Shown: positions 11,010 through 25,960 of the stretch, one piece after another
How the letters are laid out: each line of letters starts with the position of its first letter
Position numbering within the stretch: position 1 is the first letter of the stretch
From: Parafrankia irregularis
GTDB taxonomy: Bacteria > Actinomycetota > Actinomycetes > Frankiales > Frankiaceae
Length of the DNA stretch: 64,000 nucleotides
Direction: 5' to 3'
NCBI RefSeq assembly: GCF_001536285.1
Contig: NZ_FAOZ01000008.1
Location: forward strand, 275,118-339,117
Program-made: the position numbers and the translations under genes
The notes under the pieces: model-generated
Seen by the model: only the letters and a program-made list of their open reading frames with translations
What the model was told of the DNA's origin: nothing
The model's database searches: none

Positions 11010-12491
11010 GTGGCAGACCACCTCACGTTCGACCAGCTCTACATCGACGGCCGCGCCGTAGCCGGAGAGTCGGATGCCCTCGCGGTCGAAGACCCAGCAC
11101 TAGAACAGAATTTCACTCATGTGCCCACGGCCTCACTGGCCCAGGTGGACCAGGCGGTCGATGCGGCGCGACGGGCGTTCGATGACGGCCCGTGGAGTCG
11201 CCTCCCGGTGGCCGAACGGGTCACCGTGCTGCGGCGCTTCGCCGATCGGCTGCGCGAGAGCCGCGACGAACTGATCGAGACGGCGATCCGCGAGACCGGC
11301 GCGACCAGGCTCGTCGCGCAGTGGGCGCAGGTCGACATGGCCCTCGACCAGGCCCGTCAGCTGGCGGACCTGTTCGCGACGCTGCCCGAGTGGGAGCACA
11401 ACGAGCTGCCGCTGGCGGACTCGTTCGATCCGGCCGGCCGCGACGTGCTGCTCAGCATCCGCCGTTACGAGCCGTGCGGTGTGGTCGCGGCGATCAGTCC
11501 CTACAACTTTCCGCTCCAGACGAACGTGTGGAAGGTGGTCTCGGCGCTGGCAGCGGGGTGCAGCGTCGTCCTGCGCCCGAGCCCGCTGACGCCGCTGACC
11601 GCGCTGGCGCTGGGCGCGGCCGGGCTCGACGCCGGTCTGCCGCCCGGGGTGCTCAACGTCGTCGTCGAGCGTGACTCCCAGGGCGCGGAACTGCTCACCA
11701 GCGATCCGCGGATCGACTGTGTGTCGTTCACCGGGTCCACGGCGGTGGGCCGGCGGATCGCCGCCCAGGCGGCCCCGACGGTCAAGCGGCTGCTGCTGGA
11801 ACTCGGCGGCAAGTCGGTGCAGCTCTACCTGCCCGACGCGCTCGGCGGGGTGGAGGCCGGGGTGTCGACCGTCTTCGGCTCGCAGAGCGGACAGGGCTGC
11901 GCGCTGCAGACCAGGGTGCTGGTGCCGCTGGAGAACCTGGACGAGGTTGTCGGGCGGCTGGCCGCCGTCGCCGGCGCGCTGCGGGTGGGTGACCCTCACG
12001 ACCCGGCGACCGTCGTCGGCCCGGTCATCTCAGCGGCGCAGCGGGACCGCGTCGAGCAGCTGGTCGCCGCCGGCGTGGCGGCGGGTGGGCGGCTGGTGGC
12101 CGGCGGCGGTCGCCCGGCCCACCTGCCGGTCGGCTACTACATCGAGCCGACCGTCGTCGTGGTCGACGACAACCGCAATCCGCTTGCCCAGCAGGAGGTC
12201 TTCGGCCCGGTGGTGACCGTGCAGGGCTACCGCGACGTCGACCATGCCGTCGCCATCGCGAACGACAGCGAGTACGGCCTGTCCGGCGGCGTCTACACCG
12301 CCGACCTGCGGCTCGGGCTCTCCATCGCCGAGCGCATCCGCTCCGGGACAGTGCAGGTGAACCGGGGCGCCGCCAACGCCTACACCCCGATGGGCGGGTA
12401 CAAGCAGAGCGGGATCGGCCGCGAACGCGGCGTGGCGGGATTCCGGGAGTACCAGGAGCTCAAGCATGTCGTCGTCGCCGGCGCCCGCTGA
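11010..12491 (+). CDS. Aldehyde dehydrogenase (ALDH superfamily)
   Basis: A 493-residue ALDH that opens the long plus-strand operon. SPYNFPLQTN carries the oxyanion Asn, LLELGGKS the general base (Glu about 264) and SGQGCALQTR the nucleophile (Cys about 297). MGGYKQSGIGRERG closes the domain. The GTG at 11010 has GGAG seven bases before it and begins ADHLTFDQLYIDG, the normal ALDH start, so the longer upstream frame is not used. Codons 31-37 (cca gca cta gaa cag aat) are unusually AT-rich for this genome and contain a near copy of the operator seen at 1966 and 9827. It oxidises a pathway aldehyde to an acid. Confidence 0.9.
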   Translation: MADHLTFDQLYIDGRAVAGESDALAVEDPALEQNFTHVPTASLAQVDQAVDAARRAFDDGPWSRLPVAERVTVLRRFADRLRESRDELIETAIRETGATRLVAQWAQVDMALDQARQLADLFATLPEWEHNELPLADSFDPAGRDVLLSIRRYEPCGVVAAISPYNFPLQTNVWKVVSALAAGCSVVLRPSPLTPLTALALGAAGLDAGLPPGVLNVVVERDSQGAELLTSDPRIDCVSFTGSTAVGRRIAAQAAPTVKRLLLELGGKSVQLYLPDALGGVEAGVSTVFGSQSGQGCALQTRVLVPLENLDEVVGRLAAVAGALRVGDPHDPATVVGPVISAAQRDRVEQLVAAGVAAGGRLVAGGGRPAHLPVGYYIEPTVVVVDDNRNPLAQQEVFGPVVTVQGYRDVDHAVAIANDSEYGLSGGVYTADLRLGLSIAERIRSGTVQVNRGAANAYTPMGGYKQSGIGRERGVAGFREYQELKHVVVAGAR

Positions 12492-12741
12492 CCCGATGGC
12501 CACCGACGGGAACCGGCGTGCCGACGCGCGCGGATCCAGCCTGCACGTGGACCGCGACCTCTGCATGGGCTCAGGGTCCTGCCTGTTCCAGGCACCCGCG
12601 ACCTTCGACCTTGACGACGAGATGAAGGTCGTCGTCCTCGATGGATCCGACTCCGCGGACGCGGTCCGTGCCGCCGTCGATTCCTGCCCGTCCGGCGCGC
12701 TCAGATTCGTCGCCCGATCCGAACCAGGGGAGAACTCGTGA
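12466..12741 (+). CDS. Small ferredoxin, probably 3Fe-4S, P450 partner type
   Basis: A 91-residue electron carrier. DRDLCMGSGSC supplies a Cys-x5-Cys pair and DSCPSGAL the third Cys-Pro, the pattern of single-cluster [3Fe-4S] ferredoxins that feed actinomycete P450s. In most, the residue at the fourth position is His or another aromatic; here it is Ser. The ATG at 12466 has AGGAG seven bases upstream and lies inside the end of the ALDH gene; an ATG at 12496 is the alternative. The P450 four genes downstream is the obvious partner. No ferredoxin reductase is encoded nearby. Confidence 0.85.
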   Translation: MSSSPAPADPMATDGNRRADARGSSLHVDRDLCMGSGSCLFQAPATFDLDDEMKVVVLDGSDSADAVRAAVDSCPSGALRFVARSEPGENS

Positions 12742-13538
12742 CATCACCATCGTTAGCCGGACAGACAGCAGTGATCACCGGTGCCGGCTCCGGTGTGGGT
12801 CGTGCGTCCGCCCTGCGGTTCGCCGCCGCGGGTGCGCGGGTGGTCTGCGCCGACGTCCGAGAGGACTGGGCGAAGGAGACCGCGCGCCTGGTCGGCGCGG
12901 CGGGCGGGACCGGGGTGGTCACCCGCTGCGATGTCGCCGTGGAAGCCGATGTCGCCGATACGGTCGCGGCGGCCGTCGAGAACTTCGGCCGGCTCGACAT
13001 CATGTTCAACAACGTCGGAATCACCGGCTTCAAGCCGGGCGCGTCGTTCGAGGACTTCACCGCGGACGACTTCGCCCGGCTGACGGACGTCAACTTCCGG
13101 GGCGTCTTCAACGGCTGCAAGTTCGCGGTGAAGCAGTTCAAACAGCAGGGCCGCGACGGTGATCGCGGCGGCGTCATCGTCAACACCGGTTCGGTCGCGG
13201 GCATCGTCGGATTCGGCAGCGTCGTCTACGGCGCGACCAAGGGCGCGGTCAACCAGATCACCCGCGGTATCGCCATCGAGTGCGCGCCGTTCGGCATCCG
13301 ATGCAACGCCATCTGCCCGGGTGCCATGCCGCTGACGAACTTCACGCCCGTCTCCCCCGGAGCCGAGTTCTCCCCGCCGGCGCAGCAGTACCTCGACGAG
13401 GTCGCCGCCCTCCAGCCGCTGGGCCGCTACCTCACCGCCGAGGACTGCGCCGAGGCGGCGCTCTTCCTGGCATCGGACGCGTCGAAGAACATCACCGGCA
13501 TCCTGCTGCCGGTCGACGGCGGATACACCGCCCGTTGA
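12738..13538 (+). CDS. Short-chain dehydrogenase/reductase (SDR)
   Basis: A 266-residue classical SDR. TGAGSGVGRA near residue 13 binds the nucleotide. NNVGITGF near 90, NTGSVAG near 147 and YGATKGAV near 161 give the Asn, Ser, Tyr and Lys of the active site. CPGAMPLT and DGGYTAR close the domain. The Asp after the second beta strand (CADVRED) suggests NAD(H). The GTG start overlaps the ferredoxin stop (GTGA), so translation is coupled. It probably oxidises an alcohol made by the P450 two genes downstream, or a beta-hydroxyacyl intermediate. Confidence 0.9.
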   Translation: MTSPSLAGQTAVITGAGSGVGRASALRFAAAGARVVCADVREDWAKETARLVGAAGGTGVVTRCDVAVEADVADTVAAAVENFGRLDIMFNNVGITGFKPGASFEDFTADDFARLTDVNFRGVFNGCKFAVKQFKQQGRDGDRGGVIVNTGSVAGIVGFGSVVYGATKGAVNQITRGIAIECAPFGIRCNAICPGAMPLTNFTPVSPGAEFSPPAQQYLDEVAALQPLGRYLTAEDCAEAALFLASDASKNITGILLPVDGGYTAR

Positions 13539-13590
13539 GGACGCGACCGGGGCCGCGGTCCAGTGGCCCCAGGGAGAGGAGGCGAGATCC

Positions 13591-14049
13591 GTGACGGAGA
13601 ACCCCGCACCGACGACCGGCGACGGCGGTTACACGGCACCCGATCTGGCATTGTTCGGCGCGGAACACGTCCGCCGTTATGTCGAGACCGGCGGCGCCGT
13701 CGGCCACAGCTGGAACGGCGTGACCTGCCTGGTGCTCTGGACGACCGGGCGACGCACCGGGCAGCGCCGGGCGACGCCGCTCATCTACACCTCCGACGGC
13801 GACCGCTTCGTCGTCATCGCCTCCCAGGGCGGTGCCCCGGCTCATCCCGGCTGGTACCACAACCTCCTCGCCGAGCCCAAGGTCGAGGTGCAGGTGCTGG
13901 CGGACCGGTTCACGGCGACCGCCCGCACCGCCGAGGGCACCGAACACGAGCGTCTGTGGAGCCTGATGGCCCAGCGCTGGCCGAACTACGACGAGTACAC
14001 GAAGCGGACGACACGCAGGATTCCCGTCGTCGTTCTCGAGCGAGGCTGA
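13591..14049 (+). CDS. Deazaflavin (F420)-dependent nitroreductase-like protein, Ddn family
   Basis: A 152-residue protein of the Ddn/split-barrel family, which uses F420H2 to reduce quinones, enones or nitro compounds. WTTGRRTGQRRATPLIY near residue 50 and GGAPAHPGWYHNLLAEPKVE near 85 are the family signatures, the second forming part of the F420 pocket. A strong AGGGAGAGGAGG precedes the GTG start. It lies between an SDR and a P450 in the operon and ends one base before the P450 start. An F420-dependent double-bond reduction of an enone or enoyl intermediate is a reasonable guess. Confidence 0.85.
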   Translation: MTENPAPTTGDGGYTAPDLALFGAEHVRRYVETGGAVGHSWNGVTCLVLWTTGRRTGQRRATPLIYTSDGDRFVVIASQGGAPAHPGWYHNLLAEPKVEVQVLADRFTATARTAEGTEHERLWSLMAQRWPNYDEYTKRTTRRIPVVVLERG

Positions 14050-14050: not shown

Positions 14051-15310
14051 ATGGTCGCGAGTGACGTTCCCACCCTGGACCCACAGCGCATCCGCGAGCT
14101 GTTCGACCTGCGCAGCGACGTCTACGCCGCCCGCGGCGGGGCCTTCGAGACGGACCCGTACCCGGCGTTCCACCAGCTGCGCGAGACCGGGCCGGTACAT
14201 CCCGGCATCGTCGGCCCGCTGGTCGGGTTCCACGGCGAGGCGTTCTTCCAGGGCCTGCCGTACCCGGAGCTGCCGCACTTCTCGGTCTTCGACCACGCCA
14301 CCTGCCAGTCGGTGTTGCGGGACAACGACACCTTCGTGTCGGCGCCGAGCGCGCCCGGCCCCGAACGCGCGATGGCCGACACGTTGCTGCTCTACATGGA
14401 CGGGGTGAAGCACCGCCGCTACCGCGCCCTTGTGCAGCCGTCGTTCGTGCCGAAGCGGGGCGGTTGGTGGAGCGAACGGTGGATCGAGTCCACGGTTCGG
14501 GCGCTGCTCGACGCGATCGAGCCGCTCGGCCGTTCCGATCTCAACGTGGATTTCTGCGCGGCGATTCCGCTGCTCACGATCTGCGGCAGCTTCGGCATCG
14601 GCGTGTCCGACGCGCTGCGGATCCGCGAGGCGGCCACCGCCGACGGACGCGACGCCCACACCCTGGTCGACATCCTGGCCCCGATCATCGCCGAACGCCG
14701 CCGGGAGCCGGCGGACGACCTGATCAGCGTGCTGGTCCAGGCGGAGGTCACCGAGGAGGACGGTGAGCGCCATCGGCTCTCCGACGTGGACATCCTGGGT
14801 TTCTCCCACCTGCTGCTCGCCGCCGGCTCGGGCACGACGTGGAAGCAGATGGGCATCACCCTGCTCGCTCTGCTGACCCACCCGCAGTGGCTCGCCGCCG
14901 CCCGGGCGGACCGGGCGGTGCTGCGCGCCGCGATCGAGGAGTCGCTGCGCTGGACGCCGACCGACCCGATGTTCTCCCGCTACGCCACGAAGGACACCAC
15001 CCTCGGCGGTGTCGACGTCCCGGCCGGATCGGTCATCCACCTGTGCTTCGGTGCGGCGAACCGCGATCCGGCCCGCTGGGAGCGGCCGGACGAGTTCGAC
15101 CCGTCCCGCCCGCCGGGCGCACACCTCGGTTTCGGCGGTGGCCCGCACATCTGCCTCGGGATGCACGTCGCCCGCGCGGAGATCCTCACCGCGATCTCCG
15201 CGCTGCTCGACCGCCTCCCGAACCTGCGCCTCGACCCGGACGCCGAGACGCCGCGGATCATCGGCATGTACGAGCGCGGGCCGACCGCGGTGCCGGTGGT
15301 GTGGGGATGA
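14051..15310 (+). CDS. Cytochrome P450
   Basis: A soluble 419-residue bacterial P450 that inserts oxygen into the pathway substrate. The heme loop is FGGGPHICLGMHVAR, with the Cys ligand near residue 368. The I-helix reads LAAGSGTTWKQ, replacing the common AGxDT by AGSGT. The K-helix ExxR is ESLR in EESLRWTPTD. The N-terminus has no membrane anchor. The loss of the I-helix Asp is unusual and could alter proton delivery. Its stop overlaps the DUF35 start (ATGA). The ferredoxin at 12466 is the likely electron donor. Subfamily cannot be assigned by eye; steroid or terpenoid hydroxylation is possible. Confidence 0.92.
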   Translation: MVASDVPTLDPQRIRELFDLRSDVYAARGGAFETDPYPAFHQLRETGPVHPGIVGPLVGFHGEAFFQGLPYPELPHFSVFDHATCQSVLRDNDTFVSAPSAPGPERAMADTLLLYMDGVKHRRYRALVQPSFVPKRGGWWSERWIESTVRALLDAIEPLGRSDLNVDFCAAIPLLTICGSFGIGVSDALRIREAATADGRDAHTLVDILAPIIAERRREPADDLISVLVQAEVTEEDGERHRLSDVDILGFSHLLLAAGSGTTWKQMGITLLALLTHPQWLAAARADRAVLRAAIEESLRWTPTDPMFSRYATKDTTLGGVDVPAGSVIHLCFGAANRDPARWERPDEFDPSRPPGAHLGFGGGPHICLGMHVARAEILTAISALLDRLPNLRLDPDAETPRIIGMYERGPTAVPVVWG

Positions 15311-15762
15311 CGTGGGTCGAGGAGTTCAGCCGGGTCGCGCCCCCGCTGACGGAGCGGACGGCGCCGTTCTGGACCTCGGGCGCGGACGGCGTGCTGCGGA
15401 TCGCGCACTGCCGTGACTGCGGGCGCTACCTGCACCCGCCGCGGCCGGTCTGCCCGGCCTGCCGGGGCCGCGACGTCGGGTTCGACCCGGTGTCCGGCCG
15501 CGGCACCGTGTGGTCGTGGACGCTGAACCGCTACCAGTGGGTTCCCTCCATGCCACCGCCATACCTGGTCGCGGACGTCGAGCTGGTCGAGCAGCCCGGG
15601 CTGCGCCTGCTGACCAACGTGGTCGACTGCCCGCCGGAGCGGATCCACGTCGGCCTGCCGGTGCGGGTGTGTTTCAGCCAGGCCGGTGACGCCTACATCC
15701 CGCTGTTCCGCCCCGATGGTCCGGCGAGCGAGGAGCGGGGAGCAGACGATGAGCGGGAGTGA
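15307..15762 (+). CDS. DUF35 OB-fold protein with Zn ribbon (ChsH2-like partner)
   Basis: A 151-residue protein with a rubredoxin-like zinc ribbon (CRDCGRYLHPPRPVCPAC, four Cys near residues 36-54) followed by an OB fold starting at GRGTVWSWT. In steroid side-chain catabolism such DUF35 domains bind the thiolase-like aldolase Ltp2 and hold the acyl-CoA. The next gene, overlapping by 14 bases, encodes just such an Ltp protein. The ATGA overlap with the P450 ties all three together. There is no separate MaoC hydratase domain as in ChsH2 itself; this is the DUF35 part alone. Confidence 0.82.
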   Translation: MTWVEEFSRVAPPLTERTAPFWTSGADGVLRIAHCRDCGRYLHPPRPVCPACRGRDVGFDPVSGRGTVWSWTLNRYQWVPSMPPPYLVADVELVEQPGLRLLTNVVDCPPERIHVGLPVRVCFSQAGDAYIPLFRPDGPASEERGADDERE

Positions 15763-16924
15763 CGGCCGCCGGCCCGAGGACGCGGCGCTGATCACCGGGG
15801 TCGGCCGGTCGGCGATCGGCCGTCGGCTGCGGGTGGACCCGTGGGTGCTCACCGCGGACTCCGCACTGGCCGCGATCGCCGACGCCGGGCTGACACCGGA
15901 CGACATCGACGGGGTCTCGACCTACCCGGGCGCGTTCTGGTCGACGCCCGGCATCACCGGCGCCGGTGTCGACGACGTCCGGGCGATGCTCGGGCTGAAC
16001 CTGCGCTGGCACACCGGTGGCGGCGAGCTTGCCGGCCAGCTCGGCTCGATCGTCAACGCCGTGCTGGCGGTCGCCGCCGGGCTCGCGACCCACGTGCTGT
16101 GCTTCCGGACGGTGTGGGAGTCGACCGCGCAGGAAGGCTTCGGCGGCCGGTCGGCGACGCTGCTCGGCGGCGGCGGAACCCCGGGCCAGCCGGTGCGCTT
16201 CGGCCGGGAGCTCACCCAGTGGTCGACCCCGTTCGGGATCGGTTATCCCTGCTACGCGGCGATGGAGATGCAGCGGCGCATCGAGCTGGCCGGCGCCAGC
16301 CGGGAGAAGTTCGCCACGCTCGCGCTCGTCACCCGCGCCTACGCGGCCCGCAACGAGGCCGCGGTGTACCGCGATCCGCTCACCCTCGACGAATACCTAG
16401 GCGCCCGGATGATCTCCGATCCGATCTGTGTCTACGACTGCGACGTCCCGGTCGACGGTTCGGTGGCGTTCGTGGTCTCGAACGCGGCGGCGGCCGGGGA
16501 CCCCGGGCGGGCGCTGCGGCTGGAGGCGATGGGCTCCGCCTCCGGGTTCGACGAGTCCGCCGCCATGATGTGGGAGCGGACCGACCTCAAACCGGCCGAC
16601 GTCGACCTCGCGCAGGTCTACGACGGCTTCTCGGTCTACGCGCTGCGCTGGCTGGAGGCCCTCGGGTTCTGCGGCCGCCACGAGGCGCTCGACTTCATCG
16701 AGGGCGGAGACCGGATCGGCCCGACCGGCGATCTGCCACTGAACACCGGCGGTGGCCAGCTTTCCGGCGGGCGGCTGCACGGCTACGGCGGCCTGCTGGA
16801 GGCCTGCCTGCAGCTGCGCGGCGAGGCCGGCGCCCACCAGCTACCCACCGCCCGTCAGCTTGCCGTCGTCACCAGTGGCGCGGAGTCGTTCACCTCGTCC
16901 CTGCTGGTCGGGGCACCGCGCTGA
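15749..16924 (+). CDS. Thiolase-fold lipid-transfer protein, Ltp2-like acyl-CoA retro-aldolase candidate
   Basis: A 391-residue SCP2-thiolase-type protein. The region that normally holds the thiolase nucleophilic Cys instead reads HTGGGELAGQLGSIVN, and the C-terminal thiolase Cys is also absent. Thiolysis is therefore unlikely. AQVYDGFSVYAL and SGGRLHGYGGLLEA keep the Tyr-rich segments seen in Ltp2, the aldolase that cleaves hydroxylated steroid side chains. Pairing with DUF35 supports the same chemistry here: retro-aldol release of an aldehyde or ketone from a beta-hydroxyacyl-CoA. The ATG at 15749 has GGAGCGGGGAG upstream. The substrate is unknown. Confidence 0.78.
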   Translation: MSGSDGRRPEDAALITGVGRSAIGRRLRVDPWVLTADSALAAIADAGLTPDDIDGVSTYPGAFWSTPGITGAGVDDVRAMLGLNLRWHTGGGELAGQLGSIVNAVLAVAAGLATHVLCFRTVWESTAQEGFGGRSATLLGGGGTPGQPVRFGRELTQWSTPFGIGYPCYAAMEMQRRIELAGASREKFATLALVTRAYAARNEAAVYRDPLTLDEYLGARMISDPICVYDCDVPVDGSVAFVVSNAAAAGDPGRALRLEAMGSASGFDESAAMMWERTDLKPADVDLAQVYDGFSVYALRWLEALGFCGRHEALDFIEGGDRIGPTGDLPLNTGGGQLSGGRLHGYGGLLEACLQLRGEAGAHQLPTARQLAVVTSGAESFTSSLLVGAPR

Positions 16925-16979: not shown

Positions 16980-18134
16980 ATGTTGCCAACGACCACCCGA
17001 ATCATGTCGGCGGACGACCATCTGATCGAACCGGCCCACCTGTGGGTCGACCGCGTCCCGGCGAAGTACCGCGACGGCTGCCCGAAGATCGTGGAGGTCG
17101 ACGGCCGGCAGGCCTGGCTCTACGAGGGTGAGCACACCTACATCCCGATGGGCTCCTGTCGTGCGCTGCCCGGCTTCTCCGAGGCCGGCTACCCACCGGC
17201 GCCCGGCACCGCCCGCTTCGACGAGATACGTCCCGGCTGCTACGACCCGGTCGAGCGGCTGAAGGACATGGACATCGACGGGACGTGGGGCCAGCTCTGC
17301 TTCCCGAACTACGCGCGGTTCGCCGGGCACCGCTTCTTCCTGAACGTCACCGACCTGGAGCTGGGGCTCGCCTGCCTGCGCACCTACAACGACTACCTGC
17401 TCGACGAGTGGTGCGCGACCGACCCCGAGCGCCTCTTCGGCGCCGTCATTCTCCCGCTGTTCGACGTCGAGAAGGCCGTCGAGGAGCTGAAGCGGGTGCT
17501 CGCCAAGGGCGCGCGGGCGATCGCCTTCTCGGAGAACCCGACCGTGCTCGGCCTTCCCTCGGTCCACACCGACCACTGGGATCCGCTGTGGGCGGTGGCG
17601 AACGAGGCCGGCATTCCCATCTGCATGCACATCGGGAGCTCGTCCCGGCTTGTCACGACCTCCGCGGACGCCCCGCCGACGGTGCTCGTCGCGCTCAACG
17701 GCGTGAACTCGATGATGGCCGGCGTCGACTGGCTGTTCGCCGGCATTCTGGAGCGCTTCCCCCGACTTAAGGTCATCCTCTCCGAGGGCGGCGCCGGGTG
17801 GATTCCCTACATTCTCGAGCGGGCGGAGAAGGCGTTTCACGACGGCCGCCTGAGCCAGGACACCTCCATCGGCCAGGCCGGCGTCAAGGCCACCCGGTCG
17901 CCCCGTGAGGTGTTCGCCGAGCACATGTACGTCTGCCTCGTCGACGAGCGGTTCGCGCTGCGCAGCCTCGCCGACGTCCCGGTCGACAACCTGCTGTTCG
18001 AAGGCGACTTCCCGCACGGGGACGGGCTGTGGCCGAACAACCGCGCCTACCTGGAGAAGGCCCTCGCGGACGTGCCCGACGCGGACGCCGTGAAGATCGC
18101 CGAAACGAACCTGCGCGGTCTGCTGCGCGTCTGA
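16980..18134 (+). CDS. Amidohydrolase-2 family metal-dependent hydrolase
   Basis: A 384-residue TIM-barrel hydrolase, the third of this type in the window. RIMSADDHLIEPAHLW at residues 7-22 holds the DDH metal pair with the downstream Glu. CMHIGSSS near 219 gives the strand His, and EGDFPHGDG near 345 the strand-8 Asp/His pair. The ATG at 16980 has AGGAG nine bases upstream and starts the family sequence. It follows the Ltp gene by 55 bases in the operon. Ring hydrolysis or decarboxylation of a product from the aldolase step is plausible. It is well diverged from the 2220 and 8574 copies. Confidence 0.86.
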   Translation: MLPTTTRIMSADDHLIEPAHLWVDRVPAKYRDGCPKIVEVDGRQAWLYEGEHTYIPMGSCRALPGFSEAGYPPAPGTARFDEIRPGCYDPVERLKDMDIDGTWGQLCFPNYARFAGHRFFLNVTDLELGLACLRTYNDYLLDEWCATDPERLFGAVILPLFDVEKAVEELKRVLAKGARAIAFSENPTVLGLPSVHTDHWDPLWAVANEAGIPICMHIGSSSRLVTTSADAPPTVLVALNGVNSMMAGVDWLFAGILERFPRLKVILSEGGAGWIPYILERAEKAFHDGRLSQDTSIGQAGVKATRSPREVFAEHMYVCLVDERFALRSLADVPVDNLLFEGDFPHGDGLWPNNRAYLEKALADVPDADAVKIAETNLRGLLRV

Positions 18135-18217: not shown

Positions 18218-19432
18218 ATGCCCTACGACCTGCTTGCCGGAGTGCGCGTCATCGAGGCGTCGATGTACGCGTTCGCGCCGTCCGCCGGCGCCGTACTCGC
18301 CGACTGGGGCGCCGACGTCATCAAGATTGTTCCCCCCGACGTGCGCGACCCGATGAGCGGCAACATCATCGCCGGTCTGCCGGAGCGCGAGGTGGGCGTC
18401 GCGTTCATGTGGGAGATCACGAACCGCGGGAAGCGCTGCATCGGCGTGGACCAGCGCACGAAACAGGGCCGGAGGATCGTGGCGGAGCTGGCGCGCGGCG
18501 CCGACGTCTTCATCACCAACCTGCTCCCGGACGCGCGCCGCCGGTTCCGGGTGGACGCCGAGGACCTCACCGCGATCAACCCGAACCTCGTCTACGCCCG
18601 GGCGAGCGCGCACGGGCCGGCAGGGCCGGAACGTGACGCCGGCGGCTTCGACCACACCGACTTCTGGGCGCGCACCGGGATGGCCCACGCGGCCAGCCAG
18701 GTGAGTGACGAGTTCGTCCCGCAGCCCGGCCCGGCGCTCGGCGACCTCGCCTCGGGCGCGTTTCTGGCTGGCGGCATCGCGGCCGCGCTCTTCCGGCGAG
18801 AGCGCACCGGCCGCGGTGGGGTCGTCGACGTCTCGCTGCTCTCCTCCGGCATGTGGATGTTCGGGCCCGGCGTGGTCGCGAGCCAGCTCTACGACGTCGA
18901 CGCGATCCCCCGCAACCGCCACCACGAGCTGCCGAACCCGTTCGTCGCCGCCTACACCACCCGGGACAGAAGGCTCGTCTACCTCTCCGGCATCCAGACG
19001 GAGAAGCACTTCGACCGCTTCTGCGAGACCGTCGACCGCACCGACCTGCTCACGGACCCGCGGTTCGCGACCGCCGCCGCCCGCGCGGAGAACGCGCCGG
19101 CCTGCATCGCCGTCCTCGACGAGATCTTCGCCTCCCGCGACCTCGTCGAATGGATCACGCTGCTGGAGAAGATCGCCACCCCCTGGTCGCTGGTGCAGAC
19201 CGCCCGGGAGGCGGCCGACGACCCGCAGGTACGCGCGAACAACTTCGTCACCACCGTCCAGAAGGACGCCGTCTCCTACCCGCTGGTGGCCAGCCCCGCG
19301 CAGTTCGACGGCGTCGCTCCGGCGCTCGCACCGGCCCCCGGCCACGGCGAGCACACCGAACAGGTCCTGCTGGAGCACGGCTACAGCTGGGACGACATCG
19401 TCCAACTCAAGATCGACGGAGCTGTGCTGTGA
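18218..19432 (+). CDS. CaiB/BaiF family (type III) CoA-transferase
   Basis: A 404-residue type III CoA-transferase that moves CoA between acids, or isomerises acyl-CoAs. The N-terminus RVIEASMYAFAPSAGAVLADWGAD and the segment NRGKRCIGVD are family marks. FDHTDFWARTGMAHAAS holds the Asp expected to form the glutamyl- or aspartyl-CoA intermediate. The C-terminal domain with VRANNFVTTV is complete. CGGAGA lies before the ATG. In the operon it precedes an acyl-CoA ligase, giving two alternative CoA-loading routes. It is only distantly related to the AMACR-like member at 30781. Confidence 0.87.
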   Translation: MPYDLLAGVRVIEASMYAFAPSAGAVLADWGADVIKIVPPDVRDPMSGNIIAGLPEREVGVAFMWEITNRGKRCIGVDQRTKQGRRIVAELARGADVFITNLLPDARRRFRVDAEDLTAINPNLVYARASAHGPAGPERDAGGFDHTDFWARTGMAHAASQVSDEFVPQPGPALGDLASGAFLAGGIAAALFRRERTGRGGVVDVSLLSSGMWMFGPGVVASQLYDVDAIPRNRHHELPNPFVAAYTTRDRRLVYLSGIQTEKHFDRFCETVDRTDLLTDPRFATAAARAENAPACIAVLDEIFASRDLVEWITLLEKIATPWSLVQTAREAADDPQVRANNFVTTVQKDAVSYPLVASPAQFDGVAPALAPAPGHGEHTEQVLLEHGYSWDDIVQLKIDGAVL

Positions 19433-19454: not shown

Positions 19455-21167
19455 ATGACCAGCGCCGCGTTACCGATACCGGCTTCCACCACACCGGTTT
19501 CCGCCGCCCCCGGTCTGGCCGCCGCCACCCTCTGGCAGCTCGTGCGGCGACGTGCCGACGCGACGCCGGACGTTCCCCTCCTGCTCGACGACCTCGGCCG
19601 CAGCCTCACCGCCGCCGGGCTGCGCGACGCGGCGGCGGCCACCGCCGGCGGGCTGCTGGACCTGGGGGTCGGCCACGACTCGGTGGTGAGCTGGCAGCTG
19701 CCGACCTCCCTGGAGGCGGTGGTGCTGGCCGTGGCCTGCGCACGGCTCGGGGTCAGCCAGAACCCGATTGTGCCCACGCTGCGCGAGCGCGAGGTCTCGT
19801 TCATCGTCGAGCAGGTCGGCACCACCCTGCTGGCCGTCCCACCGACCTGGCGCGGGTTCGACCACCAGGCGATGGCCACCGCGATCGGTGCCACCCGTGG
19901 CTCCCGCATCCTCGTGGTCGACCACCGCGCCGCCGCCGCTGCCGGCGAGCTCGGCCTCCCGACGGCCCGCAGCCCACTCCCGCCTCCCCCACCGCTCACG
20001 GTCGGTGTGGAGCAGGAGATCCGCTGGATCTACTACACATCCGGGACGACGGCAGCACCGAAAGGCGTGCTGCACACCGACGCCTCGGTGATGGCCGCCG
20101 CGGCCGGCTCGGTCACCGCGATGCGCCTCGGCCCGGACGACGTCTACCCGATCGCCTTCCCGATCGGGCACATCGGCGGCACCGTCATGCTCGCCGCCGC
20201 CCTGGCGTCCGGTACGCGGCTGCTGCTGGTGGACACCTTCGACCCGGCGACCAGCCCGCTGACGATGGCGGCGCACGGCGCGACCATCCTGGGCTCGGCG
20301 ACACCGTTCCTACGGGCGTACCTCGCGGCCCAGGCCGACCAGCACCACAGCGACCAGCACCGCGGCGACCAGCACCGCGGCGACGCGGACGGCGCTGCCG
20401 CGGCCCTGTTCCCGCGGCTGCGGGTGGCGGTCAGCGGTGGCGCGGCCAAACCCGCCGGCCTGCACCGGGAGATCGCCGACGGGCTCGGTGGACGTGGCCT
20501 GGTGTCGAGCTGGGGCATGACCGAGTTCCCGCTCGCCACCCACGGCGCCCTGGACGACACCGACGACGACCTGGCCCGCACCGAGGGCCGCGCGACGCCC
20601 GGCGTCGAGATGCGCGTCGTCGGGCCGGACGGCCTGGACTGCCCGGCCGGCGTCGACGGCGAGCTGCTGGTCCGCGGCCCGCAGATGTTCGCGGGCTACC
20701 TCGCCGCGGCCGAGTCGGGTGCGGGCCGTCGGCGGCCGATCGGCGAGCGGCGGTCACGCCCGGCGGAGCTGTTCGACCCGGACGGCTTCTTCCGCACCGG
20801 CGATGTCGGCGTCGTCGGCCCGCGTGGGCATGTCCGGATCTCCGGCCGGCGCAAGGACATCGTGATCCGCAACGCCGAGAACATCTCGGCGAGCGAGGTC
20901 GAGGAGGTCATCGCCACCCATCCGGCGGTCGGCGAGGTCGCCGTCATCGGACTGCCCGACCCACGTACCGGCGAACGCTGCTGTGCGGTGATCACCCTTG
21001 TTCCCGGGGCGGCCCCGGTCGGCCTCACCGACCTGGCCCGCCACTGCGAAGACGCCGGCCTCGCCCGCTACAAGATCCCGGAACAGGTCGAGATCGTCGA
21101 CGTCCTTCCCCGCACCGACATGGGGAAGATCGCCAAGCCCGTCCTCCGGAATCGGTTCCAGCCCTGA
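19455..21167 (+). CDS. Acyl-CoA ligase (ANL superfamily)
   Basis: A 570-residue adenylate-forming ligase. WIYYTSGTTAAPKGVLHTD near residue 190 is the P-loop, SSWGMTEFPLATH near 350 the adenylate site, RTGDVGVVGPRGHVRISGRRKD the hinge and LPRTDMGKIAKPVLR the A10 lysine. Two low-complexity inserts make it longer than usual. One is a His/Asp-rich repeat at about residues 295-309 (DQHHSDQHRGDQHRG), encoded by a 15-base tandem repeat. The other is a basic loop after GYLAAAESGAG. GGACGGAGG lies upstream. It starts 22 bases after the CoA-transferase and should activate the pathway acid. Confidence 0.88.
   Translation: MTSAALPIPASTTPVSAAPGLAAATLWQLVRRRADATPDVPLLLDDLGRSLTAAGLRDAAAATAGGLLDLGVGHDSVVSWQLPTSLEAVVLAVACARLGVSQNPIVPTLREREVSFIVEQVGTTLLAVPPTWRGFDHQAMATAIGATRGSRILVVDHRAAAAAGELGLPTARSPLPPPPPLTVGVEQEIRWIYYTSGTTAAPKGVLHTDASVMAAAAGSVTAMRLGPDDVYPIAFPIGHIGGTVMLAAALASGTRLLLVDTFDPATSPLTMAAHGATILGSATPFLRAYLAAQADQHHSDQHRGDQHRGDADGAAAALFPRLRVAVSGGAAKPAGLHREIADGLGGRGLVSSWGMTEFPLATHGALDDTDDDLARTEGRATPGVEMRVVGPDGLDCPAGVDGELLVRGPQMFAGYLAAAESGAGRRRPIGERRSRPAELFDPDGFFRTGDVGVVGPRGHVRISGRRKDIVIRNAENISASEVEEVIATHPAVGEVAVIGLPDPRTGERCCAVITLVPGAAPVGLTDLARHCEDAGLARYKIPEQVEIVDVLPRTDMGKIAKPVLRNRFQP
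20337..20381 (+). repeat. 15-base in-frame tandem repeat, three copies
   Basis: GACCAGCACCACAGC is followed by two copies of GACCAGCACCGCGGC, encoding DQHHS-DQHRG-DQHRG inside the acyl-CoA ligase. It lies between core motifs of the ligase and keeps the frame, so it looks like a slippage-generated surface loop. Confidence 0.85.
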
Positions 21168-21295: not shown

Positions 21296-22633
21296 ATGAG
21301 ACGATCCAGGACCGGCCTGGTCATCGCCAGTGTTCTCTTACTCGGCATCGCCGCATGTGGCGGCGGAGACGACTCCGCTGCCACAACGGCGATCGATCAG
21401 AAGATGTTCGACCCGGGACCGGCCACCGGCTGGGACAACACGGGCCTTTCCGTGGACCCGGCCAGCCTGAAATGCGCCGACCCGGGCGGCCCGCAGGCCC
21501 GCGGCGTGACCGACACCGAGATCCGGGTCGGTGGCCTGTTGAGCATGACCAGCGCCGCCGGGGTGGCGCTCGCGGCTGCCGAGGCCGGGGCGAAGGTCCG
21601 GTTCGACCGTGCCAACGCCGAGGGCGGCGTGAACGGCCGAAAGATCAACTATGTGGGCACCCTCGACGACGGAAGCGACCCGGCCCGCAACGTCTCCCAG
21701 GCCAAGGCACTCGTCAACGAAAACGTCTTCGCGGCCGTTCCGACGATGGTCCGCTCGCCCAACTATCGGGACACCTTCTGCAACGACGGCGTGCCCTACT
21801 TCGGCTGGGGCACCCAGGAGGCGTACTGCGACACCGCGATCGGCTTCGGTATCACCGGCTGCCTGGTTCCCAGCTCGGGGCACAGCACCAGCTCGGCGTG
21901 GGGCATGGTCGGGCGGTCGATTCTCGGTGACAAGGCCACCGGCGGCAGCGTCGCGGCCATCGGGACCGACCAGGACAACGCACGTCTCGGTCTCGCGAGC
22001 ATCACCAGGTCCTTCGAGCAGTCCGGGATGGAGGTCGTCTACGACAAGAGCCCGGTACCGGCAGCCGGGCTGGCCGACGCCACCCCGATCATCGGGGACG
22101 TCATGAGCGCCGACGGTGGCGCGCCGCCCGACCTGGTCGTGCTGACCACGGACTTCGGGCCGACCGCGAAGATCGCCGAGGCACTCGCCGCCGCCGGCTA
22201 CCAGGGCGCGGTCCTGAGCGCCGTCGGCTACGACCCACGGCTGGAGGGGTACGCAGGGCTCCAGGGCACCTACACGCTGCTCCAGTGGTCATCGACACAG
22301 ACTGACTCGCCCGCGATGGAGCAGCTCGAGGCCGACTTCGCCAAGTACGCCCCGGACCAGGCGGTAGGGCTGGTCGCGATGGCCGGTTACTGGTCTGCCG
22401 ACTTCTTCCTCGACGCGGTGGCCAAAACCGGCAAGGACCTCACCGTCGACAATCTGTTGAAGACCATCAACGGCGGTGGCTACACCTTCCACCGGGACGG
22501 CGCGCTCGCCGAGACGCAGTGGCCGCTCAACCACACCATCTCGGCGCCGTGTGCCAGCACGGTCAAGCTGCAGGACAAGAAATACGTCGAGACCCTGAAG
22601 CTGTCCTGCGGCGCCCCGCTGCCCAGCAGCTGA
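21296..22633 (+). CDS. Type 1 periplasmic-binding-protein lipoprotein (LivJ-like substrate-binding protein)
   Basis: A 445-residue exported binding protein. MRRSRTGLVIASVLLLGIAAC is a signal peptide ending in a lipobox (GIAAC), with lipidated Cys21. The mature protein begins with a Ser/Asp/Ala linker, then a Peripla_BP_6 domain from DTEIRVGGLLSMTSAAGVAL onwards. Such proteins deliver amino acids, aromatic acids or other small carboxylates to ABC permeases. No permease or ATPase gene lies in the window, so it must use a distant transporter or act as a sensor. Its place in the operon suggests that it captures the pathway substrate or a breakdown product at the cell surface. Confidence 0.9.
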   Translation: MRRSRTGLVIASVLLLGIAACGGGDDSAATTAIDQKMFDPGPATGWDNTGLSVDPASLKCADPGGPQARGVTDTEIRVGGLLSMTSAAGVALAAAEAGAKVRFDRANAEGGVNGRKINYVGTLDDGSDPARNVSQAKALVNENVFAAVPTMVRSPNYRDTFCNDGVPYFGWGTQEAYCDTAIGFGITGCLVPSSGHSTSSAWGMVGRSILGDKATGGSVAAIGTDQDNARLGLASITRSFEQSGMEVVYDKSPVPAAGLADATPIIGDVMSADGGAPPDLVVLTTDFGPTAKIAEALAAAGYQGAVLSAVGYDPRLEGYAGLQGTYTLLQWSSTQTDSPAMEQLEADFAKYAPDQAVGLVAMAGYWSADFFLDAVAKTGKDLTVDNLLKTINGGGYTFHRDGALAETQWPLNHTISAPCASTVKLQDKKYVETLKLSCGAPLPSS

Positions 22634-22657: not shown

Positions 22658-23719
22658 ATGGATGCGACAGACTCGGCGGCGCGACAGACGCCGCGGACTC
22701 GACAGGCACGCGACCTGCTCACGGGCGGCGAGGTGACGGTCGGCTGTGTGGCACCGCGGTCCCGGGCCGGGGTCGCCGCGCTGGAAGCGGCGGGCGCGGA
22801 CACGCTCTGGGTCGGCGGGCATGTCGCCTCGCCGAACCAGAGCCCGGAGGCGATGGCGTGGCTGGCCCGGCTGAGCGCGCAGGCGGAACGGGCCGTGATC
22901 GGCACAGCGGTCCTGCTCCTGCCGCTGTACCAACCCGCCATCGTCGCCAAGCAGATCGCCGATCTCGACACGGCCACCGACGGCCGGATCGCGCTCGGGA
23001 TCGGAGTCGGCGGCGAGTACCCGGCCGAGTTCGACGCCTGCGGGGTGCCGCTGGCCGGTCGGGGCCGCCGTACCGACGAGGCGATCGGGGTGCTGCGTGA
23101 TCTGTGGGGCGGCACCCCGGTCGACCGGCCGGGCCCGCTTTTCCCGATGACGGGCGTACGGATCGGCCCGCCACCGTGCCAGCCGGGTGGGCCGCCGGTC
23201 ATCGTCGCCGGCCGCCGGGAGCCGGCGATGCGCCGCGCCGCCCGGCTGGGCGACGGCTGGATGCCCTACCTGTACTCCGCCGAGCGCTACCGGCGGTCCG
23301 TCGACATCGTCCGAGCCGAGGCACATGCGGCCGGCCGTACCCTGGACGGTTTCGTCTGGGCGGCGTACCTGCCGGTCGTGGTCGACGACGACAACGAGGT
23401 CGCCCGGCGGCGCGCGGCGGAGTTTCTCGGCGGGACCTACCGGCAGGACTTCCTGCCGATGGTCGACCGAGTCGCCGTCGCCGGGACCCCGGCGCAGGTG
23501 GAGGCACGGCTGCACGACTACATCCGAGCCGGCGCCCGCCACCTGGTGCTCCTGCCGGCCGTCCGTGACGGCGGTGACGACCTGCTCCTGCATCTCATGA
23601 CGGACATCGCCCCGCGGCTGCGCACGGCACCCACGGAGCAGCCGTCCACCGCCAGCCCACCGAGGCCGGACCGCGGCGACAGCGACAGCGGCAGCAGCGA
23701 CAAGAGAGGCTACGCATGA
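22658..23719 (+). CDS. Luciferase-like monooxygenase fold, probable F420-dependent oxidoreductase
   Basis: A 353-residue LLM-class TIM-barrel protein. VTVGCVAPRSRAGVAALEAAGADTLWVGGH begins the barrel. GRIALGIGVGGEYPAEFDACGV near residue 120 and the GPPPCQPGGPPVIVAG strand are typical of the F420 branch. Members carry out hydride transfer on enoyl, keto or secondary alcohol groups. The C-terminal 35 residues are a Ser/Asp/Gly tail. It follows the lipoprotein gene by 24 bases, and its stop overlaps the next start (ATGA). Use of FMN instead of F420 cannot be excluded. Confidence 0.8.
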   Translation: MDATDSAARQTPRTRQARDLLTGGEVTVGCVAPRSRAGVAALEAAGADTLWVGGHVASPNQSPEAMAWLARLSAQAERAVIGTAVLLLPLYQPAIVAKQIADLDTATDGRIALGIGVGGEYPAEFDACGVPLAGRGRRTDEAIGVLRDLWGGTPVDRPGPLFPMTGVRIGPPPCQPGGPPVIVAGRREPAMRRAARLGDGWMPYLYSAERYRRSVDIVRAEAHAAGRTLDGFVWAAYLPVVVDDDNEVARRRAAEFLGGTYRQDFLPMVDRVAVAGTPAQVEARLHDYIRAGARHLVLLPAVRDGGDDLLLHLMTDIAPRLRTAPTEQPSTASPPRPDRGDSDSGSSDKRGYA

Positions 23720-24765
23720 CCGTTCCCGTTCCCGGCACGCTCGACGAGATGCTGTCGCCGGACTGGCTGACCGGCGCGCTCGGCGCCCGGTTCCCCGGCA
23801 TCGCCGTCACCGCGGTCACGCCAGGATCCGTGATCAGCCGGATCGCCACCAACGCCCGGTTCCGGATCGAGTGCGCGGACGGTGTCCCGGCAGGGCTCTC
23901 CCCCGATCTGTGCGGCAAGGGCTACTTCACCGAGGCAGGCCACGCGTTCCGGCACGCGGGGATTCCGGAGGCCTGCTTCTACCGTGACGTCGCGGCCAGA
24001 TCGGGCGTACGCACGCTGCGCAGCGTCTACGCCGACGTCGACCCGCGGGAGCGGCAGGGCGTCGTCATCACCGAGGATGTGATCGTCGAAGGCGCGGAGT
24101 TCCTCGACGCACGTAGCGACTACACGCCCGACCAGGCCGCCGAGAGCCTTGCGCAGCTCGCCACGCTGCATGCCTCGACCTGGGGTGCCGCCGACCTCGC
24201 CACCACCGAGTGGCTCGCCCCGCGGCTGACCAGCTACCTCCAGCTGCGCGGGGTGGACGACATCCGGGTCAACTTCGACGGGCCGATCGGCGCCGGCGTG
24301 CCAGCGGAGGTGCGCGACGCCGATCGGCTGGTGCGCGCCTACCGGTCGCTCGCCACGCTGACCGCGCAGGACGACGAGCCCTGGTGCGTGATCCACGGCG
24401 ACGCCCATGTCGGGAACGTCTTCCTCGACGGCGCGGGCCGGCCGTCCTTCCTCGACTGGCAGCTGGTCCAGCGCGGGCCGTGGTACCTCGACGTCGGCTA
24501 CCACATCGCATCCGCGCTGACCGTCTCCGACCGCCGCCGGACCGAACGGGACCTCGTCGCGCACTACCTCGACCGGCTTCGGGCGGCCGGGGTCGAGGCG
24601 CCGCCTGACAACGCCGTCTGGCCGGGGATCGGGCGCGGCATCATCCATGGCCTCTACCTGTGGGCCATCACCCTCAAGGTCGACCCGGCGGTCACCAGCC
24701 TGCTGCTGACGCGGCTGGGTACCGCCGCGGCTGACCACGACGCCCTCACCGCATTCGACCGATGA
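23716..24765 (+). CDS. APH-like phosphotransferase family protein
   Basis: A 349-residue kinase-fold protein. CVIHGDAHVGNVFLDG near residue 235 contains the catalytic HGDxHxxN loop, and PSFLDWQLVQRGPWYLDV the metal-binding DxQ in place of DWE. RNAs or antibiotics are unlikely targets. Homologues beside acyl-CoA genes phosphorylate hydroxylated small molecules or hydroxyacyl-CoAs. No ACAD partner lies directly next to it, unlike the 43327 kinase. Translation is coupled to the LLM gene through ATGA. The actual substrate is unknown. Confidence 0.72.
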   Translation: MTVPVPGTLDEMLSPDWLTGALGARFPGIAVTAVTPGSVISRIATNARFRIECADGVPAGLSPDLCGKGYFTEAGHAFRHAGIPEACFYRDVAARSGVRTLRSVYADVDPRERQGVVITEDVIVEGAEFLDARSDYTPDQAAESLAQLATLHASTWGAADLATTEWLAPRLTSYLQLRGVDDIRVNFDGPIGAGVPAEVRDADRLVRAYRSLATLTAQDDEPWCVIHGDAHVGNVFLDGAGRPSFLDWQLVQRGPWYLDVGYHIASALTVSDRRRTERDLVAHYLDRLRAAGVEAPPDNAVWPGIGRGIIHGLYLWAITLKVDPAVTSLLLTRLGTAAADHDALTAFDR

Positions 24766-24853
24766 CCCGCGTTGTTACAACCACCCACCTCGCCGGACAC
24801 GACCGATGAAAAGCCGGAACCAGCGTCAGACCGAACAGGACGGAGTACGGACG

Positions 24854-25960
24854 ATGACGACGTCGATCGAGGACCGCTGGCTGCGCCTCGAGCCGATCAG
24901 GATCGGCTGGCTGGGCATGGAATGGCAGCGTTTCAAGCGAGAAATCCAGATGGCCTTCGACGAGGGCATCGAGCGCGGCCTGCTCGACCGCCGCTACGAG
25001 TTCCTCTTCGAGGACAACGCGGGCCTGCCCCAGGGCACCGCCAAGGGCGGCATCGACGCGTTCAACCGGCTGGTGGACGCCGGCTGCCTGGCGGTGGTCG
25101 GCGCCAACTACACCGACTCGGCGATGGCGCTGGCCGAGCACGCGAACGCCCGGAAGGTCCCGCTCATCAGTATGTGCGGAACGGACGCGTTCCACGGCGA
25201 GTACTGCTTCAGGCTCGGCAACGGTGACGTCGGTGGCGACCCCGCGTTGATGGTCAACTGGCTGAAGCGCGAGGGTCACCGCCGCGTGGCGGTCGTCATG
25301 CCCTGGTCGCCGATCAGCCCCGAGTACGTCCGGTTCTTCCACCAGGAGTGCCGCCGGCTCGGCATCTCGGTCGCCGCCGTCGAGTCGATCACGAACAAGA
25401 CCACCACCGACGAGCTCGCGGAGAAGTTCGCCCTGCTGCGCGATGCGAAGGCCGATGCGCTGGCCTGGCTCGGCTACGGCGGCCTGGTCGTGAACGGGAC
25501 GGTCCGCGCGGCGCTGGAAAAGATCGACTGGGATCCGCCGCGGATCATGACCACCGCGTTCATGCAGTACATCTGGGGCTTCGAACAGCTGGAAGGCTGG
25601 GTCGGCATCGACCAGTGGTGCCCGGAGAACCCGCGCATGCACCGGTTCCACGAGCGGTTCGTCGCCCGCTACGGCGAGGACCCCTGGATGTGGCCGAACG
25701 CCATTCCCGGCCTCGCCTACGACATGGCTGCCACCACCGTTGAGGCCCTGCATCGCGCCACCGTCCTGACCGGCCAGGGCGTCAAGGAGGGGATCGAACG
25801 GATCCGTTTCATGCCAGCCGTCACCGGCGGCCCGAACACCCACATCGCCGGCGGCCCGTTCGACCACCAGCTGTTCAAGGGCGACTGGCTGCACTTCGGC
25901 CGGGTCCGCGACGGCAAGCTCGAGTTCGCCGGCCTCTTCGAGCCGACCGACGACTACTGA
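24854..25960 (+). CDS. Binding-protein-fold (Peripla_BP_6) homologue without signal peptide
   Basis: A 368-residue protein with the fold of LivJ/AmiC-type ligand binders. IRIGWLGMEWQRFKREIQMA begins the first lobe, FEDNAGLPQGTAKGGIDAFN and VVGANYTDSAMALAEH follow, and RVAVVMPWSPISPEYVRFF opens the second lobe. The ATG at 24854 has GGAG eight bases upstream; an earlier ATG at 24806 has none. Neither start gives a hydrophobic signal or lipobox, so the protein should be cytoplasmic. It may be an intracellular sensor like AmiC, or an enzyme derived from the fold. The last ten bases, CGACTACTGA, are duplicated directly after the stop. Confidence 0.7.
   Translation: MTTSIEDRWLRLEPIRIGWLGMEWQRFKREIQMAFDEGIERGLLDRRYEFLFEDNAGLPQGTAKGGIDAFNRLVDAGCLAVVGANYTDSAMALAEHANARKVPLISMCGTDAFHGEYCFRLGNGDVGGDPALMVNWLKREGHRRVAVVMPWSPISPEYVRFFHQECRRLGISVAAVESITNKTTTDELAEKFALLRDAKADALAWLGYGGLVVNGTVRAALEKIDWDPPRIMTTAFMQYIWGFEQLEGWVGIDQWCPENPRMHRFHERFVARYGEDPWMWPNAIPGLAYDMAATTVEALHRATVLTGQGVKEGIERIRFMPAVTGGPNTHIAGGPFDHQLFKGDWLHFGRVRDGKLEFAGLFEPTDDY

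Follow-up and report, generated by a model that had tools for sequence, protein, structure and literature searches.

The fourteen co-directional genes found at positions 11010–25960 of a stretch of Parafrankia irregularis DNA (the window: 64,000 nucleotides of contig NZ_FAOZ01000008.1, from a 9.54-Mb genome in 82 contigs belonging to the Frankia family) raise the question of which chemistry would need a cytochrome P450, a thiolase-like protein with its DUF35 partner, an annotated amidohydrolase and CoA-loading enzymes in a single operon. The answer favored here with moderate confidence is, judging from the sequences, a TetR-controlled catabolic regulon that would cleave a carbon-carbon bond by means of an oxygenase and a retro-aldolase pair, and not by beta-oxidation. 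The three genes at the center of this proposal adjoin one another:

15307–15762, plus strand: DUF35 protein with a four-Cys zinc ribbon and an OB fold, partner of Ltp (zf-ChsH2, OB_ChsH2_C; best PDB chain 6ok1_B)
15749–16924, plus strand: thiolase-like Ltp, candidate retro-aldolase, with YDGF at residue 291 and Arg342 (best PDB chain 6ok1_A)
16980–18134, plus strand: PF04909 protein AH2, candidate dinuclear beta-hydroxylase (Amidohydro_2, 5e-25; 8uyr DitZ, 6omp PtmU3)

In the following, type A denotes the operon orthologous to 11010–25960 and type B a second, rearranged cassette; AH2, SBP1 and SBP2 are working names, and the genomes, contigs and loci compared carry G, C and L numbers.

The PF04909 family includes carboxylases, hydratases and hydrolases together with a class of dinuclear monooxygenases (PMC10811679). 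The best PDB matches of AH2 by sequence were DitZ (8uyr, 3e-48) and PtmU3 (6omp, 8e-39), with decarboxylases at 6e-8 or weaker, and the same two were on top in a Foldseek search with the AH2 model (pLDDT only 60), the identity being 26–27% over the fold. The metal ligands reported for AibH2/LynB7 are Asp, His, His, Glu, Asp and His (PMC7782822, PMC10127204), while an acidic residue two positions after the last His has been reported at dinuclear sites only (PMC7782822). All six ligands were present in AH2 (D12, H14, H217, E269, D343 and H346), plus the acidic D348. The ligands were invariant in 8 aligned sequences and in 20/20 type B copies, and D348 was found in all seven aligned type A copies (those of G010 and G028 are outside the alignment) and likewise in 20/20 of type B. 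Of 115 aligned rows, 99 showed all seven residues; the others are truncated, repeat a match to the same protein, or represent second PF04909 genes in which the acidic residue is missing. Most likely, therefore, AH2 is a dinuclear-metal monooxygenase that databases mislabel as an amidohydrolase, and the ring or amide hydrolysis proposed in a first-pass annotation of this DNA found no support. The carbon attacked by PtmU3, C-5, is located beta to the C-19 carboxyl. PtmU3 hydroxylates its diterpenoid-CoA at this C-5 (PMC10127204), and from such chemistry combined with the ligand set AH2 is read, by inference, as a putative acyl-CoA beta-hydroxylase.

Both Ltp and DUF35 matched one and the same solved aldolase complex best, Ltp2-ChsH2(DUF35), represented by chains A and B of 6ok1, so that the earlier suggestion of a retro-aldol pair is consistent with a retro-aldolase as the nearest solved relative. 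The DUF35 protein, with its four Cys and OB domain, adjoins Ltp in 9/9 type A and 20/20 type B loci. The studied aldolases use two catalytic residues: Tyr294 and Tyr344 in TcLtp2 (motif YDHF), Tyr302 and Cys304 in CtSal (YDCY) (PMC12329534). The window Ltp keeps the base Tyr of the YDxF motif (Tyr291 in YDGF), but the second catalytic residue is replaced, with Arg342 at the Tyr344 place and Gly293 at the place of His or Cys. The combination of YDGF with Arg was present in all 21 Ltp relatives (46–55% identity) and in all 20 type B copies. A separate YDGF tally was drawn mostly from loci chosen by AH2 or P450; being biased, it was not used for a rate. No Cys was found in the segment aligning with the thiolase nucleophile, either in the window Ltp or in the type B copies, while a thiolase in the same window (48184–49350) has NACATAAS there. 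With its second catalytic residue replaced, the window Ltp was filed neither as Ltp2 nor as Sal; its sequence is compatible with a putative aldolase-like enzyme whose active site, combining YDGF with Arg, would represent a third pattern.

The association of such pairs with AH2 relatives was seen beyond the operon itself. DUF35 plus Ltp matches were located near AH2 relatives in 26 of 79 loci according to the pair rule (25/79 under other cut-offs), five of them orthologous or type B. Within 3 kb of an AH2 relative such pairs occurred in 17 of the 79 loci, or approximately 3.8 per 100 kb (again with five orthologous or type B), compared to 9 pairs, or approximately 1.1 per 100 kb, at larger distance. 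In a small control from one genome, with 20 random own-genome stretches on five contigs, some overlapping each other, DUF35 and Ltp matches were obtained in two, one of which was a type B locus.

Two more PF04909 proteins with the full dinuclear ligand pattern are encoded in the window (2103–3392, plus strand, and 8574–9788, minus strand). An inverted relative of the latter (41–42%) directly follows Ltp in G010 and G028, two genomes in which AH2 has a different location.

The remaining genes of the operon are as follows:

11010–12491, plus strand: aldehyde dehydrogenase (ALDH), 493 aa, GTG start (Aldedh, 5.5e-133; catalytic Cys motif)
12466–12741, plus strand: small ferredoxin (Fd) with a CMGSGSC...CPSG pattern (Fer4_19, Fer4_13, Fer4_15)
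12738–13538, plus strand: short-chain dehydrogenase (SDR; adh_short_C2)
13591–14049, plus strand: Ddn-like deazaflavin (F420)-dependent reductase (PF04075, 9e-47; TIGR00026)
14051–15310, plus strand: cytochrome P450, heme motif FGGGPHICLG (PF00067)
18218–19432, plus strand: CaiB/BaiF class III CoA-transferase, GDLASG at residue 175 (CoA_transf_3, 9e-88)
19455–21167, plus strand: AMP-forming acyl-CoA ligase, accessory (profile match)
21296–22633, plus strand: solute-binding lipoprotein SBP1, Peripla_BP_6, its N-terminus ending in a lipobox-like GIAAC (profile match, sequence)
22658–23719, plus strand: LLM F420-dependent oxidoreductase (Bac_luciferase; F420_Rv2161c with 163.0 of 166.9 bits, just under the cut-off)
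23716–24765, plus strand: APH/EcKL-type small-molecule kinase (profile match)
24806–25960, plus strand: leaderless Peripla_BP_6 protein SBP2, probably starting at 24854 with MTTSIEDRW (profile match)

The open reading frame list and the Pfam and NCBIfam scans placed all fourteen plus-strand genes and the divergent TetR gene where the first-pass annotation had them, and its guessed gene families were recovered as well, apart from the function of AH2. Five of the 13 junctions are overlaps (26, 4, 4, 14 and 4 bases) and the remaining gaps are 1–128 bases long. The GTG start of ALDH at 11010 was preferred over the longest frame from 10854, because five of six extracted orthologues have 495–518 aa; the sixth, from the near-identical genome G001, has 544 aa. 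The SBP2 orthologues are 85–99% identical, and no signal peptide was visible in SBP2 or in any of them. The terminator scan found no plus-strand terminator-like site between operon genes: the single plus-strand match inside the operon (21317) falls within the SBP1 gene, and the matches overall numbered 5 against a shuffle mean of 3.3 (sd 1.8). A sigma-70-type promoter was likewise not detected by the scan. Sequence searches of the PDB at E 0.01 gave no relative for the kinase or SBP2, and one weak relative for SBP1. AlphaFold models built from 6- and 8-sequence alignments were of poor quality (pLDDT 45 for the binding protein, 60 for AH2); the AH2 model served for one Foldseek search only and no geometry was taken from the models.

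Neither an acyl-CoA dehydrogenase nor a hydratase gene was detected in the operon by the Pfam and NCBIfam scans. After CoA loading, AH2 is the one gene that could set the beta-hydroxyl needed by a retro-aldolase, unless the P450 does so. Searches with P450 and AH2 uncovered the type B cassettes, which have the order CaiB-DUF35-Ltp-ALDH-AH2-(Fd)-(SDR)-P450-Ddn. Of their 20 loci, two belong to the own genome and eight to other genomes of the family, while a second actinomycete genus accounts for another eight and metagenome-assembled genomes (MAGs) for two. Between CaiB and AH2 no gap separating matched genes exceeds 245 bases, therefore leaving no room for a dehydrogenase or hydratase gene there, and from AH2 to the core end the gaps are below 350 bases, except one of 944. 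Identity to the window genes was 52–62% for P450, SDR and Ddn, 47–52% for ALDH and approximately 32–45% for Ltp, DUF35, AH2 and CaiB. SDR was present in 18 of the 20 loci (not detected in L203 and L208), Fd was not detected in four (L050, L125, L199, L206), and L196 is a variant in which Ddn precedes Fd-P450. The total is made up of 15 of 20 P450 stretches (from 40 + 12 listed P450 places) plus L050, L058, L125, L126 and L127; the five rejected stretches were L190 and L191 (orphan P450), L198 (no match to Ltp, CaiB, ALDH or Ddn), L202 (short contig end) and L209 (no DUF35/Ltp match, other order). One of the own-genome copies is flanked by a kinase (67%), a Peripla_BP_6 protein and an AMP-ligase. 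A type B-like P450 was detected in 12 of 98 genomes of the second genus and in two of 396 genomes drawn from the phylum, own included (own genome and G104), so the cassette is not universal.

Ltp orthologues of 79–96% identity were found in eight relatives among the 58 genomes searched, own included. In the 35 genomes of the family, Ltp at this level, AH2 (84–98%) and SBP2 (85–99%) co-occurred in the same nine, and none of the three was found at those levels in the other 26. P450, DUF35, Ltp, AH2, CaiB and SBP2 were common to all nine type A operons. The same order was also present in an Acidimicrobiia MAG (L044: DUF35 53%, Ltp 61%, AH2 70%, CaiB 65%), its AH2 being split between two frames and its CaiB truncated where the contig ends. 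The search for the same gene order in other actinomycetes, proposed in the first-pass annotation, thus found it kept in type A relatives and recreated as type B. An order kept in relatives and rebuilt in a second arrangement makes the grouping more than chance, and the same functions put together twice are hard to explain unless the genes cooperate. A P450 75–76% identical to that of the operon was present as an orphan gene without the other partners in two further family genomes of the same genus, G003 and G004 (loci L190 and L191, not counted as operons); in the flank scanned, that of L191 in G003, ABC-transporter, P450 and desaturase genes adjoin the orphan.

The control region is located in front of the ALDH gene:

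10041–10703, minus strand: TetR-family regulator, divergent from the operon (Pfam TetR_N)
10780–10807, no strand assigned: twin 14-bp palindrome, putative operator, TAGTCGCCCGACTA-CAGTCACCTGACTA, between TetR and ALDH (tandem pattern search)

The core AGTC-N(2-4)-GACT occurred within the window only at 10780–10807, and 1.5 times per 100 kb in the other loci compared. Allowing up to 2 mismatches, the tandem pattern had a single place in the own genome (9.5 Mb) and was present in seven of the nine operon-bearing genomes, having been missed in G020, where the site is degenerate, and in G023, whose contig begins inside the operon. The nine genomes gave nine operon-linked places and two others (both in G025), with one match for the backwards control pattern, and the result for 15 of the 26 operon-free family genomes was one match, in one direction and with 2 mismatches, versus 12 for the backwards control. 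A TetR orthologue is divergent at the front block in seven of the eight relatives' loci; the eighth, L039, starts only within the operon, at the end of a contig. Two genomes, G010 and G028, have a split operon, with TetR and ALDH-Fd-Ddn-P450-DUF35-Ltp as the front part and AH2-CaiB-SBP1-LLM-APH-SBP2 as the back part. In G010 the two parts are approximately 0.73 Mb apart, and in G028 they are on different contigs. Both parts are equipped with a twin operator, that of the back part being located less than 20 bases upstream of the AH2 start, which links the halves functionally, independent of adjacency. The operon is accordingly predicted from the twin operator to be one regulon under the divergent TetR, as had been proposed, and such a compact regulon with a defined operator would, if the proposal is true, give a handle for finding the inducer.

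Operator-like matches in G025 were set aside on C220 (one mismatch; L224, about 9875), with no operon gene near, and on C264 (two mismatches, one direction only). The C220/L224 match adjoins unnamed genes, an integrase-domain gene and a TPR/NB-ARC gene.

The regulon, the gene conservation, the ligand residues and the absence of dehydrogenase and hydratase genes were read from the sequences, and from them we infer every reaction step of the following scheme. The P450 with its ferredoxin, followed by SDR (where present) and ALDH, would oxidize a methyl or alcohol group to a carboxylate, which CaiB would load with CoA, helped by the AMP-ligase in some strains. AH2, as a PtmU3-like dinuclear non-heme oxygenase, would then hydroxylate the beta carbon of the acyl-CoA, and retro-aldol cleavage of the alpha-beta bond by DUF35-Ltp would yield a shortened acyl-CoA along with a ketone or aldehyde. 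The SBP1 lipoprotein would capture the substrate, SBP2 may be a cytosolic sensor or carrier (an idea from context), and the F420 enzymes and the kinase would act on side intermediates. Phosphorylation of a hydroxyacyl-CoA by the kinase is likewise an idea from context, for which LvaA and ACAD10/11 are precedents. SBP2 relatives (33–34%), leaderless-looking as well, were seen near AH2 relatives in other actinomycetes (L057, L060, L066), and cytosolic binding proteins associated with loci of this kind may form a family.

An oxygenase route makes chemical sense where a quaternary alpha carbon, such as C4 of resin acids and C23-oxidised triterpenoids, blocks alpha,beta-dehydrogenation, and the best-fitting substrate would be a terpenoid acid blocked in this way. 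In two published 5-hydroxy products, the carboxyl is attached to a quaternary carbon and the hydroxyl is beta to it, an arrangement that gives ordinary beta-oxidation no starting point. These are a 5-hydroxy-23-oic oleanane produced by Rhodococcus rhodochrous IEGM 757 (PMC11279926) and 5-hydroxy-dehydroabietic acid produced by Pseudomonas abietaniphila, for which the authors suspect another P450 as the enzyme (PMC13063091). The predicted pattern is present in both, which speaks for a terpenoid acid without amounting to proof in the case of this operon. For R. rhodochrous IEGM 107, reference diterpenoid enzymes are reported to lack a high-identity match (PMC12294881).

A bolder version, put forward tentatively and doubtful as a whole, is a widespread O2-dependent route by which actinomycetes would circumvent beta-oxidation when the alpha carbon of an acid is blocked, with the operon opening ring A of C4-gem-dimethyl di- or triterpenoids. 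Here the C4 methyl would be converted to the acid by P450, SDR and ALDH, activated by CaiB and hydroxylated at C5 by the PF04909 dinuclear oxygenase; the new YDGF/Arg class of DUF35-Ltp would perform the C4-C5 retro-aldol cleavage, protonating a fully substituted enolate, and SBP2 would be a cytosolic substrate reporter. If true, many actinomycete "amidohydrolase" and "lipid-transfer protein" genes would gain a joint function in oxygenase-primed retro-aldol cleavage at places where beta-oxidation cannot start; candidates would be at hand for the enzymes behind 5-hydroxy resin acids and 5-hydroxy-23-oic triterpenoids, and a new aldolase active-site pattern would be added.

Several observations weigh against cleavage by an oxygenase and retro-aldolase pair. 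The second catalytic residue known from TcLtp2 and CtSal is replaced in Ltp, so that cleavage by the YDGF/Arg clade is no more than a candidate activity, and the pairing of Ltp with AH2 is not obligatory: an AH2 relative was located within 1.5 kb in only one of the 21 YDGF/Arg Ltp relatives of 46–55% identity, that of L021. From the AH2 side, the association with DUF35/Ltp is enriched but partial. The name DitZ is silent on the reaction, and no paper on DitZ was found in the literature covered; in contrast to the aib system, the operon encodes neither a Rieske protein nor a ferredoxin reductase. The gene content also varies among the type A operons: SDR and the AMP-ligase were present in two of nine only (own genome and G001), LLM and APH were variable, with 63 LLM residues left in G001, and no match to ALDH, Fd or Ddn was found at the operon locus of G026. 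Of the two CoA-loading enzymes named in the first-pass annotation, CaiB holds in 9/9 operons, while the AMP-ligase is restricted to the two and is frameshifted, in two frames, in G001.

Among the competing explanations, the classical degradation of sterol or bile-acid side chains would have the dehydrogenase and hydratase supplied from elsewhere in the genome, with DUF35-Ltp working as in igr and AH2 hydrolyzing something else. P450 and LLM genes occur in sterol operons too, 6ok1 as the nearest relative of both Ltp and DUF35 is the very Ltp2-ChsH2(DUF35) aldolase, and two acyl-CoA dehydrogenase halves are fused in one gene 1.5 kb downstream on the other strand (27459–29618, minus strand; one half is matched by the PimC model and one by the IpdE2 model, both below cut-off). 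In G014, G025, G026 and G023, however, the 3–9 kb following the orthologous operon contained no match to this fused gene. The operon itself lacks both activities, with no room for them between CaiB and AH2 in the 20 type B loci, the second catalytic Tyr is Arg in the window Ltp, and the classical arrangement is shown by a separate DUF35-thiolase pair in a beta-oxidation cluster at 48–59 kb. With neither a dehydrogenase nor a hydratase at hand, and with Ltp lacking the second catalytic residue of Ltp2 and Sal, the sterol/bile-acid route is unlikely; from the side-chain removal from a polycyclic or terpenoid substrate suggested earlier, the terpenoid remains as the best candidate substrate class. 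Still more doubtful is that DUF35-Ltp is a thiolase or C-acyltransferase like BbsAB or PhlABC, performing an ordinary Claisen-type cleavage or acylation. Benzoylsuccinyl-CoA thiolase and PhlC were among the weaker PDB matches of Ltp, BbsA was the sole NCBIfam match of DUF35 at 1e-5, far below cut-off, and SDR could produce a 3-keto acid; against this stand the absence of SDR from seven of the nine type A operons and of a Cys from the Ltp nucleophile segment, in contrast to the NACATAAS of the other DUF35-linked thiolase in the window.

It is hardly probable that AH2 acts as a mononuclear hydrolase or decarboxylase in a hydrolytic ring-opening pathway, which was the earlier assumption: the Pfam name Amidohydro_2 and weak matches to ACMSD and resorcylate decarboxylases speak for it, but DitZ and PtmU3 score far ahead of the decarboxylases, and D348 belongs to a position reported as acidic only at dinuclear sites (PMC7782822). 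The tailoring of an endogenous terpenoid in biosynthesis, rather than degradation of a foreign compound, appears very improbable. PtmU3 itself is biosynthetic, acting in platensimycin formation, and no aromatic-ring or steroid-ring degradation genes are present in the operon. Uptake and induction are, however, suggested by the binding lipoprotein and the private TetR operator, and no terpene synthase was found among the scanned window genes (part of the open reading frames) or the scanned flank genes of L126, L035, L127 and L191. Taken together, the earlier interpretation of the locus was partly supported, as far as sequences can tell: retro-aldol cleavage and TetR control hold, while hydrolysis does not.

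Other parts of the window include the second DUF35-thiolase pair (48184–49822, minus strand), with a classical Cys segment, belonging to the cluster at 48184–59634. This cluster contains a true thiolase, an SDR, an enoyl-CoA hydratase and several acyl-CoA dehydrogenases, i.e. a conventional beta-oxidation set in contrast to the operon. Just past the operon there is a C-terminal relic of an AMP-ligase (26243–26593, plus strand); G001 holds a full-length AMP-ligase at this place (L034), therefore the window copy has lost its N-terminal part. An OrfB/IS605-type (TnpB-like) gene with a Cas12f1-like domain is located at 35314–36932 on the minus strand, with a small overlapping upstream frame of 140 aa.

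No description of this gene set was found in the literature by title or abstract, most subscription journals being outside the coverage, and the operon is regarded as a new combination of known enzyme families. The dit cluster of Pseudomonas abietaniphila is similar in its diterpenoid degradation, P450, sterol-carrier-like protein and the 5-hydroxy resin acid made, but has a ring-hydroxylating dioxygenase, DitA, and a ring-cleavage dioxygenase, DitC, neither of which is present in the operon. The catabolic aib operon (AibH1H2GF) shares with it a PF04909 dinuclear oxygenase together with an aldehyde dehydrogenase; in contrast, the aib substrate is a free amino acid, a Rieske protein and a reductase take part, and no CoA-transferase or aldolase is among the aib genes shown. 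The igr Ltp2-ChsH2(DUF35) and the Sal-Shy(DUF35) systems likewise consist of a DUF35-dependent thiolase-like pair with the base Tyr of YDxF kept. Unlike igr, the operon has no paired acyl-CoA dehydrogenases and no MaoC hydratase, and its DUF35 protein is free-standing, not fused to MaoC; at the active site, YDGF with Arg in the window Ltp compares to YDHF with Tyr in Ltp2 and YDCY with Gln in Sal. Finally, PtmU3 from platensimycin/platencin biosynthesis and DitZ from Rhodococcus rhodochrous (8uyr) are the nearest to AH2 among solved structures, with all metal ligands kept, but in contrast to both, the AH2 gene belongs to a 14-gene uptake-type operon, where it is located beside DUF35-Ltp and accompanied by P450, ALDH, CaiB and F420 enzymes.

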